Translations under genes and position numbers: made by a program
Virus record (IMG/VR): IMGVR_UViG_3300022934_000258
Span: 1 to 20,345 of that record
Length of the DNA: 20,345 nucleotides
Source: a virus
Strand: one strand, 5' to 3'
Shown here: in pieces, positions 14,685-19,716 of the stretch
Position numbering within the stretch: the stretch's first letter is position 1
Layout of the letters: each line of letters starts with the position of its first letter
The notes under the pieces: generated by a model
Database searches by the model: none
Seen by the model: only the letters and a program-made list of their open reading frames with translations
Told to the model about the DNA's origin: nothing

Positions 14685-16044
14685 CTGCCGGCAGTCCGTT
14701 CGGGGTCAGCAATTGCACGCGGTTCGGGTCGATGCCGTATTTGTCGGCCAGGTCTAAAACGAACCGCTGCTCGCTGATTCGTTTCTCGACTTCATCTTCC
14801 CAATGCAGGCCGCGTTCCGCATAGAGTTCCTGCAACGTCGTCAAACCAAGTTTGTAATCTTCGCGGGCGGCGCCGGCATCGCGGCCACCGTCGACGCTAA
14901 TCTTGCGCGGCCCCTGGTAGTGCCATGAGTACCAATCACCGCCCTGCGGTCGCGGTAGAAGGCCAGCCTTCATGGCTTTGCTTAATGCGTACCCATCAAT
15001 CCGCCTGGCAATCTTGCGGACAAGCCTCTGGTTTTTCTCGACGGTGCGCTGTGCCTTGGCTGTTACCAGGCGAACAACAGCGCCGCCGATTTTTGTCGGG
15101 TCGAGGCTTAAATCATACGGCCATTCGATTGCTTGAAAGGCGCTTCGCAGAATCGTGTTCTCAAACTCCTGCGCGTTCGCCGATGGGCGGTTCCTATCTA
15201 CCACCTCAATCTTACTACCAGAACCGGCGCGGAAGTATCGAATGGCCCCTCCCTCCAACGACTCCAGGGTCGTTGATAGGCTGCCGCTATCAATGGTTTG
15301 CTCGATGAAGGCTTCAGAGTCGTCGGCGTATCCGTCCTCGTTGTGTTCGACGAGTGCGATGCTGCTGGCTGCCTTTTGTGCGCTGAGTTCATATTCTCGG
15401 AGTTCCTTGACGTCCTGCAAGTCGGCTGTCACGGCCGACAGCGGCGAAATGCCGCGGCCTTGGTCGGCCCACTCTGGAAAAAAGCACAAGGCCATATCGC
15501 GGGCGCTGACTTTGCGCTCGCCGTCAATCATGTAGCTGACAGGCCGACCCTGCTTGTTGGTGATTACTCCATTAAATTCGTTTGGTCCTTGCGTCCTGCT
15601 GGCGATGCGGTGCGCTGGTATTAACTGCACGGCCGGATAACCGCTGCCGGTCTTGGTCAGCAGCACGCCGACGTCGCCGTCGCGCTTAATGGACAACAAG
15701 GCCAGGTAAAGAAACTCCTCGAAGTCGCATTTGCCTTGGATGTCGAGAATGCCGTGAAACTCTTTCAGCCATGTCTCGGCTTGTGCGCCCCATTCCAAGT
15801 CCTTGCCGACATACTGCGGAACAAATGGCTGCACCGAATAAGTGCATTGTTCCAGTAGCGCACCGCGTACCGGTGCGAAGTTGCCAAACAGCCAACGGCC
15901 CGCGCTGACAAGTTGCTGGTGCGTGCCGGTCGGTATCAGTTGCCTGGTGTCTTTGTTGAGATAGCGCAGCGGCCGACGGTGCCGGTTGCTTTGGTATTGA
16001 GGTTCCCAAAGGCTGCCGAGTTTTTTCAAGAATCCTTTAAGCAT
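14656..16044 (-). CDS. Portal protein (lambda gpB family)
   Basis: A 462-residue protein of the lambda portal family (PF05136). It shows the N-terminal helical entry (LVSAGRWLFGNFAPVRGALLEQ), a central beta region with YPAVQLIPAHRI and VSYMIDGERKVS, QGRGISPLS at 195-203, the long helical stretch around ELREYELSAQKAASSIAL, and RDAGAAREDYKLGLTTLQEL near 388-407, a signature of this family. The dodecameric portal forms the head vertex, drives DNA entry with the terminase and joins the tail. The length is close to family norms (gpB 533, shorter ones common). Eight bases overlap with the gpW-like gene. Confidence 0.9.
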   Translation of the reverse strand: MLKGFLKKLGSLWEPQYQSNRHRRPLRYLNKDTRQLIPTGTHQQLVSAGRWLFGNFAPVRGALLEQCTYSVQPFVPQYVGKDLEWGAQAETWLKEFHGILDIQGKCDFEEFLYLALLSIKRDGDVGVLLTKTGSGYPAVQLIPAHRIASRTQGPNEFNGVITNKQGRPVSYMIDGERKVSARDMALCFFPEWADQGRGISPLSAVTADLQDVKELREYELSAQKAASSIALVEHNEDGYADDSEAFIEQTIDSGSLSTTLESLEGGAIRYFRAGSGSKIEVVDRNRPSANAQEFENTILRSAFQAIEWPYDLSLDPTKIGGAVVRLVTAKAQRTVEKNQRLVRKIARRIDGYALSKAMKAGLLPRPQGGDWYSWHYQGPRKISVDGGRDAGAAREDYKLGLTTLQELYAERGLHWEDEVEKRISEQRFVLDLADKYGIDPNRVQLLTPNGLPADGNLQGQRD

Positions 16045-16288
16045 TGCGGAACTTGGCGTAAGTGCGGGTCGACAAATAACCGTAGGTGGCAGGGTCTTTT
16101 TTCTTTAAGGCAAACCGGCATTCGCGCAACACCTGGTCAATCGGCAAAGTGAATTGCTTGGTGGCGTTCCGGCCGCCGATGCCATAGGCCATCAGCGTTT
16201 TGCCTTCAGTAAGCAAGGTTTTGGCCTTTGCCTGAATGGTTGTGATTTCGCTGGTGGTGAAATTTAAGAATAGACCTTCCGCCCGCAT
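16037..16288 (-). CDS. Head-tail joiner, lambda gpW-like
   Basis: An 83-residue protein between terminase and portal, the place of gpW in lambda. It has a helix (SEITTIQAKAKTLLTEG), a beta turn with GGRNATKQFTL and a second helix (PIDQVLRECRFALKKKD), matching the two-helix-plus-hairpin build of gpW, which seals the head after packaging. A C-terminal extension (PATYGYLSTRTYAKFRNA) is longer than usual. GGAAGGAA touches the ATG, close for a Shine-Dalgarno. It shares eight bases with the portal start. The upstream 211 bases are non-coding and hold a terminator. Confidence 0.7.
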   Translation of the reverse strand: MRAEGLFLNFTTSEITTIQAKAKTLLTEGKTLMAYGIGGRNATKQFTLPIDQVLRECRFALKKKDPATYGYLSTRTYAKFRNA

Positions 16289-16330
16289 TTCCTTCCCATG
16301 TTAGCGGATGGCCCGTTTTCTCAAGCGAAA

Positions 16331-16376
16331 CAAAAAAGCAAGCCGGCCGAGGGAAAGCTACAAACCTCGACCGGCT
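16331..16376 (-). terminator. Intrinsic terminator at the end of the small-ORF block
   Basis: On the minus strand AGCCGGTCGAGG and CCTCGGCCGGCT form a 12-base stem with one mismatched or wobble pair around a 12-base loop, followed by TGCTTTTTTG. This is a standard Rho-independent terminator. It closes the block of six small ORFs before the gpW-like gene and shares the CCGG-rich stem style of the terminator at 11975-12012. Confidence 0.75.
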
Positions 16377-16435
16377 CTAGTTATGAGTGAGCGCCCGTTG
16401 CGGGCTGTTGTCATGTCCAAACAACCTTAACCATG

Positions 16436-16461
16436 AAAAGCCGGCAGAACCAAAAGCCGGC
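16436..16461. repeat. Short direct repeat AAAAGCCGGC
   Basis: AAAAGCCGGC occurs at 16436-16445 and 16452-16461, sixteen bases apart start to start, in the non-coding gap. The spacing is about one and a half turns of helix. It may be a protein-binding site or a chance duplication. Confidence 0.4.
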
Positions 16462-16499
16462 GAAACGATTGCAAACTAGGTCGGCAAATCGTCAAGCGG

Positions 16500-16724
16500 T
16501 TATCTGCCGTCAGCGTTTGGTTGTCTTGGATAGGCGCCGCTTGGGTATTCGGCTGGCGGTGTTCGCGATAGGTCAACAAGCCGGCAATCATAAAAACAAG
16601 CCAGAACCCTGCCGTGGCTAAATGCGTCCTGCCTGTTTTTGTAGTTAAACGAATTAACGACGCTGCCGTTGTTTTCAGCAACCAAAGAAAATTCGGATTG
16701 ATGCGGTTTAATTTTAACTTTCAT
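16500..16724 (-). CDS. Small hypothetical protein, last of the small-ORF block
   Basis: A 74-residue ORF. The first 55 residues look like real protein (KVKIKPHQSEFSLVAENNGS, NYKNRQDAFSHGRVLACFYDC), while the end is Pro-rich and disordered (TPPAEYPSGAYPRQPNADGR). It overlaps the AT-hook gene end by 11 bases, which supports translation. Another frame here (16427-16681) would give an 84-residue protein with a hydrophobic stretch, but its remaining sequence lacks sense and it does not join the overlap pattern. No family recognised. Confidence 0.5.
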   Translation of the reverse strand: MKVKIKPHQSEFSLVAENNGSVVNSFNYKNRQDAFSHGRVLACFYDCRLVDLSRTPPAEYPSGAYPRQPNADGR

Positions 16725-16890
16725 TTTTCTGGTTTAGTTTCGGCCGACCGCGTGGCCGGCTGCCAGGCTTCGGCGGTTTGTTCGCGTTGGCCCTGGCGGC
16801 CGCTGTCTTGGCCTCGCTGGTGGCGCTGCCAAGTAACTGGCCGATGTTGATTGGCTTGTTGCAATGCGGACACTTGTGGTTCGTGGTCAT
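16714..16890 (-). CDS. Mini protein with CxxC motif and AT-hook
   Basis: A 58-residue ORF whose ATG overlaps the preceding stop (ATGA). The N-terminus carries HKCPHCNKPINIG, with Cys7 and Cys10 as half a zinc knuckle. The middle is an Ala-rich polar helix (SEAKTAAARANANK). The C-terminus has SRPRGRPKL, which contains the canonical AT-hook core PRGRP, a minor-groove DNA-binding motif. A lone CxxC needs a partner chain or other ligands to hold metal. A small DNA-binding regulator is the most direct reading. Confidence 0.6.
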   Translation of the reverse strand: MTTNHKCPHCNKPINIGQLLGSATSEAKTAAARANANKPPKPGSRPRGRPKLNQKNES

Positions 16891-17057
16891 TCTTGTTCGC
16901 CTTCAGCTTTAGCGATTGCTTCCCTTACTTTCTTTTCCTCGTAGCTAAAAAGGCCGCATACATCTTTCCATTCTTCGTGATATGCAAGCACCGCCCGCAA
17001 CGCTTCCAACATTGCCGGAGCGGCATCTGCCAATCGGTCATTTTTGCTTTTTTTCAT
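16887..17057 (-). CDS. Small helical phage protein, unknown function
   Basis: A 56-residue ORF with two predicted helices: APAMLEALRAVLAYHEEW and YEEKKVREAIAKAEGEQE. This resembles a widespread small phage protein type whose pattern is LLEAL-x-x-V then a final AIAKAEG. The ATG adjoins the preceding stop (TAAATG) and the TGA overlaps the next ATG (ATGA). It has no signal or membrane segment. No biochemical role is known to me. Confidence 0.65.
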   Translation of the reverse strand: MKKSKNDRLADAAPAMLEALRAVLAYHEEWKDVCGLFSYEEKKVREAIAKAEGEQE

Positions 17058-17249
17058 TTAGTATGCGTGTAAATCGCTTGGCTTACTTTTAAGGCTTAAA
17101 AGGTAAGGGTCAACAGTTGGCTTGATTGGCTCATGGTTTGTGGCATTCCAAGCGTTGACTATCAATTCGCCCGTGCTGTCGTCGATGTAAACGGTTTTGC
17201 CGTTGATGGTGATGTAAACCACTTCGTCGCTTTTCTTTTCGATTTTCAT
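17058..17249 (-). CDS. Small hypothetical protein with a good ribosome binding site
   Basis: A 63-residue ORF: a charged start (MKIEKKSDE), then VVYITINGKTVYIDDSTGELIV, a likely three-stranded beta fold, and a polar C-terminus (PYLLSLKSKPSDLHAY). GGAAAGGAACC lies 11 bases upstream. A GC-rich hairpin stands immediately before that site (17266-17290). The strand-turn-strand pattern could allow a small barrel or a domain that binds a partner strand. No family recognised. Confidence 0.6.
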   Translation of the reverse strand: MKIEKKSDEVVYITINGKTVYIDDSTGELIVNAWNATNHEPIKPTVDPYLLSLKSKPSDLHAY

Positions 17250-17265
17250 TTCGTTTGGTTCCTTT

Positions 17266-17290
17266 CCCGCGCCCCCGTAGGGGCAACGGG
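17266..17290 (-). promoter_or_regulatory. GC-rich hairpin before the 63-residue ORF
   Basis: On the minus strand CCCGTTGCCCCTACGGGGGC folds with the following GCGGG: a core stem GCCCC/GGGGC around TACG, extended by CCCG/CGGG with a small internal loop. It ends a few bases before AAAGGAAC. No T-tract follows, so it is not a terminator; a mRNA-stability or translation-control element, or a processing site, is possible. Confidence 0.45.
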
Positions 17291-17299
17291 TTGAAGTGA

Positions 17300-17644
17300 T
17301 TATGCTGTATATAGTGTGTTTCCCTTTCTAGTAAATGACCGCGGGCCGCATTCGCCGATTCTTGCAGACTCGGAAAGGAACTTTTTCTCGCTTTCTGTAA
17401 CTTCCCACACTACCGGCCATTGTGTTGTTCGCAAATTATTGTCGTGATTAGCGTAAAAGCTATCTGGCTTTTTTCCAAAAGTGTAATGGTTGGGCTGTTC
17501 GTAGAAGTCGTAGCTCCAAACTGAACCATATTCTCGATGCGACTTGCGAAGCACTTTGCCGTTCATTTCATATTGGAAGGTTTTGAAAGAACCGTCCCGC
17601 TTTGTGAGTACCTTGCCTGTGACGTGTAATTTTGTTGATGTCAT
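17300..17644 (-). CDS. Hypothetical protein in an AT-rich insert
   Basis: A 114-residue ORF. The frame is open up to 17710 with a TTG start, but that part overlaps the upstream gene; ATG at 17644 (MTSTKLHVTGKV) leaves a 22-base gap. The protein is basic and Tyr/Phe-rich, with beta segments (HVTGKVLTKRDGSFKTFQYEM, VWSYDFYEQP, HYTFGKKPDSF) and ends in GECGPRSFTRKGNTLYTA. GC over 17401-17640 is about 44% (105 of 240 by count), against about 60% in a sampled stretch of terL. No family recognised; its composition suggests recent transfer. Confidence 0.55.
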   Translation of the reverse strand: MTSTKLHVTGKVLTKRDGSFKTFQYEMNGKVLRKSHREYGSVWSYDFYEQPNHYTFGKKPDSFYANHDNNLRTTQWPVVWEVTESEKKFLSESARIGECGPRSFTRKGNTLYTA

Positions 17645-17666
17645 ATCTGTAATTAAGTGTTGAAGA

Positions 17667-17870
17667 TTAAGCGCCGTATCTATTCCAAACGCTGACCATT
17701 TGATTCGCAAAATTAAGCGCCTCTCTTTTCAATTTGAAATGTTCGGCCCTGTATCCGGTTTCTGACAAAACCGCCCACTTGTAGCCGAATGAGGCTTTGT
17801 CTAATTTGCAAACCTTAACCGATTTGCCCGATTCTGTTTTGCTGTGCCAAACTGTTTTTTGATTTTTCAT
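17667..17870 (-). CDS. First ORF of the small-ORF block, hypothetical
   Basis: A 67-residue ORF read from ATG at 17870. The frame runs open to a TTG at 17945, but that TTG is the start of the promoter's TTGACT box, so I reject it. The protein is basic: NQKTVWHSKTESGKSVKVCK, then YKWAVLSETGYRAEH and a helical end (KREALNFANQMVSVW). A TGA from a ten-codon upstream frame (17899-17867) overlaps the ATG, which might act as a leader. No Shine-Dalgarno is visible. Function unknown. Confidence 0.5.
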   Translation of the reverse strand: MKNQKTVWHSKTESGKSVKVCKLDKASFGYKWAVLSETGYRAEHFKLKREALNFANQMVSVWNRYGA

Positions 17871-17913
17871 ATTAGCTTTATTTGTTGGCTTGGGTTCATT
17901 CCCTCGCGCTGCA

Positions 17914-17933
17914 AACAGTAAAACCCAACTGTT
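17914..17933. promoter_or_regulatory. Operator-like inverted repeat over the promoter
   Basis: AACAGT and ACTGTT form perfect six-base arms separated by eight bases (AAAACCCA), a spacing typical of sites for dimeric repressors. It covers the -10 region of the promoter candidate. Which protein would bind is unknown; a host or phage repressor, or the AT-hook protein, are possibilities. Confidence 0.45.
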
Positions 17934-17945
17934 CGGTTTAGTCAA
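17915..17945 (-). promoter_or_regulatory. Promoter candidate for the small-ORF block
   Basis: Just after terL the minus strand has a run of T and A (positions about 17948-17970) like an UP element, then TTGACT (five of six match to the -35 consensus, 17940-17945), and after 17 bases TTTACT or after 19 bases TACTGT as a weak -10. An inverted repeat overlaps the -10 region. The promoter would drive only the small ORFs, which end at the terminator at 16331-16376. Confidence 0.5.
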
Positions 17946-17976
17946 CCCCTTTTTTGAAAAAAAATAAAAAAAGTTT

Positions 17977-19716
17977 TTAGGCCGTTTCCGCCAGGCATTT
18001 GGCCATCATGGCCGCCGCAATCTGCATACCTTCGCAGTCCCAAAGGTGATTGGCCCGCTTGCCGACACGGTGCCATTCGTAAACGGTTTGGCCGGCCTTG
18101 TCGTGGCGCTCCCTGCGGCGCTCGGAAAACATTTGCAGTTCGTACTCGTTGCCGGCATCCGGCGTCACCGTCCAATTTGCACCACGGCCGTCGCGTAGGT
18201 TGGCCAATACATCTTTGCAAGTCGGGTTGCTCCAATGAAACAAAGTCACCGGCCGCACCCTGCCCTGGCTTTTGGTTCCCACGGCGGGGTCGACATAGAC
18301 GCGGGGAGAGTAGGCGCGGCGAACGGTTTCGCCTTTTATTTTGTGCGCGAAGTCTTTGGTCTTGGCTCCCTTTATTGACGTGAAGCCGAAACGCTTGCAG
18401 GCCGCATAAACTTTTTGCGCGTTGTAGCCGGAGTCGACGAACACCAGGTGCGGCTTGACGTTGTACTCGGCCCGCAAGTCCTCGATGCTTTCAAACGTCA
18501 ACGGCTTCGACCAATGCACAAGCCGGCTCTGGCCGTCGGCAGCCCAGGCGCGGACTACCAAATAAAATAAATCACGCTGCACGTCGACGGTGGCAAAGCG
18601 GAAGGCTTCGTCGGGCCAAGGCCATTCGTCGTCGTGCGTTGCCAGTTCCCGCAGTTCGTCGTCGGTTTCCATTTCTTCTATCCACGGCACGCCAAGCGAC
18701 TCGGCCTTGAATACCTTCAGCGGAACGGTGGTTCCGACTTTCATCGCGGCCTTGGCTTGTAAAAATTCCTGCACCAAATCACGCCAGGGAACCCACGGCG
18801 GCAGGACGGCCGACCAGCGGAAACTGACCTTCTCGCTTGGCGCCTTCTCGTTCGTGGACCGCCACTTGCCGGAAATGGCGAAGGCTTTGCGGACGTCCTG
18901 CCGGTCGGTGAAGGTTGCCATGCAATGCGGACACTCGTAGCGGATTGTCTTGGCTAGTTCGTCGAAGTCGTATTCGTCATTTACGAAGGTGACTTCGTTG
19001 GTGTCCCATTTGATGAAGTCGAAATTCATTTCGTGGCGTTCGTCGCATTCTGGACAAAGTACCTCGTAAATTCTTTGGTCGCCGGCAAGAAAAGCGCGAT
19101 GCACATGGTCATTTTCATGGTCAGGTGTTGAGATAACCACGCGGCGTGCGTTCCAAAATGCGCGTGTTCGTTTTATCACCATCTCGTATGCGCCTGGTGG
19201 ATAGTTCCGCACCTCATCCAGAAACAGCCACCGGATTGGCTTCGACTGCAATTTGCTTTGGCTGTTGGCGCCGTTAATCACCAGCGGCATCGAGGCGAAA
19301 TTGATTTCGAGGGTCGTCTTGGCGTGCCGGTCGGTTGGGAACAACTCGGCAACCGCTTCGCAGTTTTCCAGCGTCGGCATTAGCCTTGTCCTAGCGAATG
19401 TCTTGGCTTCGTCTTGTGCGGCCATTACCCACATGGCAGGGCCAGGGTCTTGTGCGATGCACCAGGCCGCCAAGGTTATCACCATTTGAGTTTTGCCGGA
19501 TTGGGCGCTGCACATGATGGCCAAATCCTTGCACCTATTATCAGCGAAGCATTCCATCGGTTCCTTTGTCCAAGGCGCGATGTTGGCGTCGAATTTGCCA
19601 GGGAAAGGCGAAGTTTTATCCACGACAATATTCTTCTCGGCCCACCGCCATGGCGGGTCGGTGCTGCGCGGTGCTATTGCCCGCCTTGCGATGCGTTCAA
19701 CCGTTGTCGTCTCCAT
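17977..19716 (-). CDS. terL: Terminase large subunit, GpA family
   Basis: A 579-residue packaging motor of the lambda GpA type (PF05876). The ATPase half shows Walker A CSAQSGKT (69-76), Walker B WLFLDE with Asp167/Glu168 and a coupling motif VVISTPD (193-199). A zinc-ribbon is supported by CPEC at 221-224 and CPHC at 262-265. The nuclease half has the RNase H-like acids: Asp378 (ATVDVQ), Asp428 (VFVDSG) and Asp560 (HLWDCE). Size is a little shorter than lambda gpA (641). It cuts and translocates concatemeric DNA into the prohead, docking on the portal. Start overlaps terS by 43 bases. Confidence 0.95.
   Translation of the reverse strand: METTTVERIARRAIAPRSTDPPWRWAEKNIVVDKTSPFPGKFDANIAPWTKEPMECFADNRCKDLAIMCSAQSGKTQMVITLAAWCIAQDPGPAMWVMAAQDEAKTFARTRLMPTLENCEAVAELFPTDRHAKTTLEINFASMPLVINGANSQSKLQSKPIRWLFLDEVRNYPPGAYEMVIKRTRAFWNARRVVISTPDHENDHVHRAFLAGDQRIYEVLCPECDERHEMNFDFIKWDTNEVTFVNDEYDFDELAKTIRYECPHCMATFTDRQDVRKAFAISGKWRSTNEKAPSEKVSFRWSAVLPPWVPWRDLVQEFLQAKAAMKVGTTVPLKVFKAESLGVPWIEEMETDDELRELATHDDEWPWPDEAFRFATVDVQRDLFYLVVRAWAADGQSRLVHWSKPLTFESIEDLRAEYNVKPHLVFVDSGYNAQKVYAACKRFGFTSIKGAKTKDFAHKIKGETVRRAYSPRVYVDPAVGTKSQGRVRPVTLFHWSNPTCKDVLANLRDGRGANWTVTPDAGNEYELQMFSERRRERHDKAGQTVYEWHRVGKRANHLWDCEGMQIAAAMMAKCLAETA

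Follow-up and report, generated by a model that had tools for sequence, protein, structure and literature searches.

A probable moron-type accessory operon with exchangeable cargo at the terL-W junction of an uncultured phage clade

The window, an IMG/VR viral contig of 20,345 bases, carries six small ORFs between terL and the gene in the W position. This block is most likely an accessory operon of the moron type, lodged at a site prone to recombination and made up of a portable control region, exchangeable cargo and a gene for a 58-aa protein (E58). Comparison of related loci documents insertion and replacement of the block, exchange of its cargo, a conserved control region and coding constraint on three of its genes. 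We read the operon as mobile, and as probably expressed early and repressed at a palindrome within its promoter; we infer that the cargo may act against host defence or in host takeover.

An insertion between terL and the W position

The genes of the window lie on the minus strand, as do all features located below. Their order is terS, terL, the six small ORFs, an 83-aa gene, a lambda-type portal gene and an ORF labelled head-protease-like from its appearance alone. The left neighbour of the small ORFs is terL (17977..19716; gpA type, PF05876, 2e-50). The right neighbour is the 83-aa gene (16037..16288), which the earlier note called gpW. Its position fits, but Pfam and PHROG searches with 16288-16037 returned no match, and the name is used here for position only.

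The insert was delimited against the empty sites of L004, L007, L008, L012 and L025 and by a right junction that is identical in nearly all filled sites. It occupies 16495..17979 (1,485 bp), bounded by the terL stop on one side and the duplicated right junction, (A)ACCGCT|TGACGATT, on the other. Its GC content is 45.9%, versus 56.6% in terL, and no 1,485-bp stretch of the contig is lower, so that its composition differs from that of the phage; the E58 gene alone has 58.2%. The earlier note was right that GC is low here, but its value of 44% for 17300-17870 is corrected to 42.4%. ARAGORN detected no tRNAs in the window, L094 or L035.

A TerL search yielded 33 related loci. The gap between terL and W is only 145-206 bp in 10 of these, which are empty, and 756-1,691 bp in the remaining close relatives, which carry differing sets of small ORFs (these are metagenomic contigs, perhaps incomplete, and several may share related samples, so that site counts are not counts of independent events). 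Even at 98-99% TerL identity, sites may be empty in one phage and filled in another, or hold different genes, and the TerL nucleotide tree forces at least four empty/filled changes on well-supported branches. The ORFs cluster into roughly 25 families across 22 sites; E58 is found at the largest number of these, and a WYVYGY family of 60 aa at 11. The counts are approximate, because a fused ORF in L015 led single linkage to join the C63 and E58 families. The earlier note had described six small ORFs forming a moron-like cassette and proposed comparing relatives for presence or absence of the block. The ORFs are present as described, and the same genes in the same order clearly do not recur in all relatives: the block is absent from ten and replaced by other sets elsewhere. 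Together with the comparative promoter evidence given below, insertion and replacement support the moron-like reading.

Nearly every filled site ends in (A)ACCGCT|TGACGA(T/A)T, which repeats the end of terL, stop codon included, as it stands in the empty L004, L007, L008, L012 and L025. The insert therefore separates the last sense codons of terL from the former stop. The ACCGCT form is found at filled sites in both main subgroups, even though the terL end reads GTTGCT or GTCGCT in empty members of the second. We considered CGCTTGA as a recombination signal and rejected it, as it occurs elsewhere at roughly chance frequency and its one other recurrent place appears to be coding. Judged by identity values, terS is exchanged as well: in L007, L008, L025, L019 and L020 it is 34-40% identical to that of the window, while terL is 82-98% identical.

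Between the cassette and W lies an intrinsic terminator (16332..16377) with a 13-bp stem (16377-16340) followed by T6 (-24.3 kcal/mol), which a strict scan missed because its loop has 12 nt. Directly after it and before the W-position gene, a CGCTTGAGA box at 16310-16325 is retained whether or not a site is filled. As both elements lie outside the right junction and are shared by empty sites, they are ancestral. The terminator that had been said to close the block exists and is strong, but it is outside the insert. It has been lost in L009, whose leaderless cassette includes a 158-aa ORF (L009:2868-3341) that by eye resembles a 2OG-Fe(II) oxygenase and has no PHROG match.

A conserved control region

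At the upstream end of the insert is an A/T-rich block (17946..17979), whose AAAACTTTTTT core is invariant or nearly so in 13 aligned cassettes. It is followed by a predicted sigma70-type promoter, TTGACT-17-TTTACT (17917..17945), which a strict consensus scan missed because of its TTTACT -10 box. Its spacing is conserved among relatives, with a spacer of 17 bp in 14 terL-W promoter sequences and of 18 bp in L052 and L058. Within the spacer we identified a palindromic operator candidate, AAACCGAACAGTTGGGTTT (17921..17939), with 8/9 dyad pairs.

Taken alone, the promoter and dyad of the window are modest (shuffle p about 0.006). The 17-18-bp spacing and the dyad centre recur, however, in 16 distinct terL-W sequences, with the centre at a constant offset from the -35 box (half a step off in L014/L027 and one step in L052/L058). 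The arms vary between sites (e.g., AAACCGAACAGTTGGGTTT, ATAAGCGAACTGTTCGCTTAT, ATAACCTAACGTTAGGTTAT and AAAACCCAGCAGTTGGGTTTT). The best dyads among relatives have 10/10 pairs, with shuffle p values of 0.0002-0.0004; all the shuffles preserve spacer composition but not the kinship of the sequences. Operator symmetry is poor in L002, L005, L026 and L018, and poorest, without significance, in L018. Comparison of relatives thus upholds the promoter/operator-like site of the earlier note as a separate promoter with a dyad.

Downstream is a conserved leader, CAGCGCGAGGGAATGAACCCAAGCC (17887..17911), found in 21 other terL-W cassette contigs; across relatives, the leader of filled sites reads CAGMGCGAGGGAATRARCC. 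A search of Rfam gave no match. The leader also occurs in the unrelated phages L051, L062, L065 and L066, which have no TerL similarity in the region examined. There, as CAGCGCGAGGGAATRAGCC, it follows a sigma70-like promoter ahead of runs of small ORFs (L051:3928, L062:2046 as oriented, L065:9130 and L066:13737), the promoter in L051 and L062 being of the TTGACG type. Possibly the leader is an early 5'UTR element that these phages share. Matches in L057, L059 and L068 were judged to be due to chance, as was the one exact match across 84,980 host genomes, which lies inside a coding frame. A search of phage records with the promoter and leader gave chance matches only.

We envisage that the A/T-rich block, the promoter, its spacer palindrome and the leader would drive one to several exchangeable cargo genes, with E58 encoded at or near the end of the operon. 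Transcription from this promoter would be independent of the late operon and would most probably occur early in infection; the cassette transcript would end at the ancestral terminator before W. The promoter would then be silenced by a repressor occupying the palindrome.

The identity of that repressor bears on a second reading, in which the palindrome serves the phage's own lysogeny repressor as its operator, making the operon a lysogeny-regulated moron. An integrase is encoded in the relative G001 (PHROG, 1.2e-19), and the operators vary from clade to clade, in the manner of immunity specificities. An immunity operator would normally be present in several copies at early promoters, however, and a search for such repeats elsewhere found none: no further copy lies within 3 mismatches in the window or within 4 mismatches in the long relatives G001, G004 and G005 (contigs that are possibly incomplete). 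We consider this reading rather unlikely.

Cargo genes and E58

The first cargo ORF, A67 (17667..17870, 67 aa), has no relatives among the sequences searched. B114 (17300..17644, 114 aa) has relatives in L005, L014, L015 and L027 and in the unrelated L094, and no match in phage records; its structure prediction (pLDDT 47) was judged too weak for a fold search. C63 (17058..17249, 63 aa) contains a conserved VVYITINGKTVYIDDSTGEL. D56 (16887..17057, 56 aa) corresponds to the C-terminal part of phrog_1273, a family of unknown function (E 6.8e-8), of which L022 encodes a full-length version of 92 aa (E 3.8e-15). F74 (16500..16724, 74 aa) is shared by L003 and L026 only. For E58, B114 and C63, dN/dS is mostly 0.1-0.4 (two little-diverged E58 pairs are near 0.8-0.9), indicating that at least these ORFs are real genes. 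Between B114 and C63 is a stable hairpin (17262..17295) with a UACG loop and no T-run (-18.9 kcal/mol), raising the question of whether it is a processing or attenuation site. A similar structure, CGTTGCCCC-loop-GGGG, occurs near position 4725 of L094 after the B114 operon.

Several lines of evidence indicate that the cargo moves. L003 and L054 have two cargo genes in common at 87-89% nucleotide identity, and the acid156 gene of L002 and L054 is 85% identical, versus 67% for terL in both pairs. A third phage type carries acid156 alongside C63, and members of two cargo families turn up in further phages at sites other than this one. The B114 relative in L094 (67% amino acid identity) adjoins an integrase-like ORF and has a promoter of its own, TTGACT-17-TATGGT, with a perfectly palindromic spacer. 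Beside these two genes is a tRNA-like fragment (L094:3640-3690) that is perhaps an attachment site; ARAGORN reported no complete tRNA.

Such movement bears on whether the ORFs are instead late-operon genes with a part in packaging or assembly, their transcription starting upstream, in which case the promoter-like site would be incidental. They are on the same strand as the packaging/head block and inside it, the GC content of the E58 gene is phage-like, and E58-like genes recur near terL in the distant phages L086, L087, L091 and L092. However, the entire block is missing in ten relatives, cargo recurs outside the late operon, and promoter spacing, dyad and leader are better conserved than the cargo. 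We regard late-operon membership as improbable.

Searches of Pfam, PHROGs, NCBIfam and PADLOC matched none of the six products to a protein of known function, which counts against our preferred reading of an accessory operon and leaves the host-takeover or anti-defence role proposed by the earlier note with no direct support. Among PADLOC defence families there was only a weak partial match to C63 (E 0.019), below a useful threshold. No anti-CRISPR homology was found in the ORFs of the window, and the cargo of one relative has a sub-threshold match to AcrF31 (E 0.0047).

E58 (16714..16890) is the constant member of the cassette. It is present in 22/22 terL-W sites that bear the leader (those of the window and of 21 contigs, among which L023 and L024 are near-copies of L022) and in 0/13 others. 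Invariant in it are C7-P-x-C10 (CPHC in the window) and the AT-hook-like P46-R-G-R-P50, with S25-E-A-K28 and R33-A-N-A36 between them. The earlier note's likely DNA-binding protein is plausible for E58 on account of these motifs, but neither E58 nor any other ORF of the window has an HTH according to Pfam, PHROG and structural modelling. E58 matched no named family in Pfam, PHROG and NCBIfam searches and nothing in phage records. Its predicted structure has a Zn-like hairpin, helices and a tail, and was judged too weak for a fold search (pLDDT 67); this and the absence of an HTH also weigh against the accessory operon as we describe it.

Given its constancy, E58 is the candidate regulator, and it is tentatively possible that the cassette is acr-aca-like: E58, alone or with a partner, would bind the palindrome and autorepress the promoter, and the cargo would be anti-defence proteins. 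The inverted repeat in the core promoter, the variable small genes and the conserved small gene for a putative DNA-binding protein reproduce a published layout (PMC9410906), and E58 tracks the leader. L086 and L087 belong to a distant lineage; their cassettes finish with an E58-like gene, which is followed by a terminator and preceded by other cargo. L087 also carries AACCTAACAGGGTAGGTT behind its terL, the left half-site of this sequence (AACCTAAC) being equal to that of L027, and the AcrF31 match would also fit. Against this stand the missing HTH and the lack of any match to a known Acr or Aca. L094 and L065 have palindromic promoters but no E58, and L018 combines an L022-like E58 with a right half-site resembling that of the window, so that there is no strict co-variation of E58 with operator type. 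AT-hooks, moreover, usually recognise A/T-rich sequences and not a palindrome that contains GC pairs. These last points, like the poor symmetry of several operators, count against our main reading as well.

Significance and comparison with known systems

The phage clade is uncultured and distant from described phages: a near-identity DNA search of phage records gave no match, and the closest TerL in catalogued records is about 28% identical. Within it, the control region of one cassette site stays constant, while small genes without a known function are gained, lost and exchanged downstream of it. The leader, palindromic promoter and E58 are therefore concrete bait for collecting candidate anti-defence genes, and they raise the question of whether a small AT-hook protein can act as an Aca repressor. 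More speculatively, and with considerable doubt on our part, the cassette could represent a type of mobile anti-defence operon at the terL-portal junction, with a CxxC/AT-hook mini-protein as a new class of autoregulator and cargo swapped behind a constant palindromic promoter and leader. If this were true, leader and E58 could bait anti-defence genes as yet unknown.

In acr-aca operons, an inverted repeat within the core promoter precedes variable small genes and a conserved small DNA-binding gene (PMC9410906). The cassette has this arrangement behind its sigma70-like promoter, including the inverted repeat. It differs in that the conserved protein is of a CxxC/AT-hook rather than HTH type and no cargo is recognised as Acr; lacking the HTH, it was not filed as an acr-aca operon. 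Hotspots of P2-like phages and P4-like satellites (PMC9122126) carry anti-phage systems and likewise vary in gene content at one locus among related phages. The site is another one, and the ORFs here are tiny and have no PADLOC defence-family match. Archaeal viruses place early anti-defence genes under shared regulatory sequences (PMC11065993), and in both cases dissimilar small genes follow a conserved, strong control sequence. Here, however, the promoter and leader are of bacterial type and the cassette is polycistronic and at one locus.

The description adopted here is that of the morons of temperate phages (PMC4378225 and references there). As in morons, the insert lies between genes that are adjacent in relatives, at an exactly defined junction, and has its own predicted promoter, a downstream terminator and a differing composition. 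Unlike them, it is a multi-gene cassette whose terminator belongs to the ancestral junction, and it has been repeatedly re-stocked at one site while the control region and E58 were retained.
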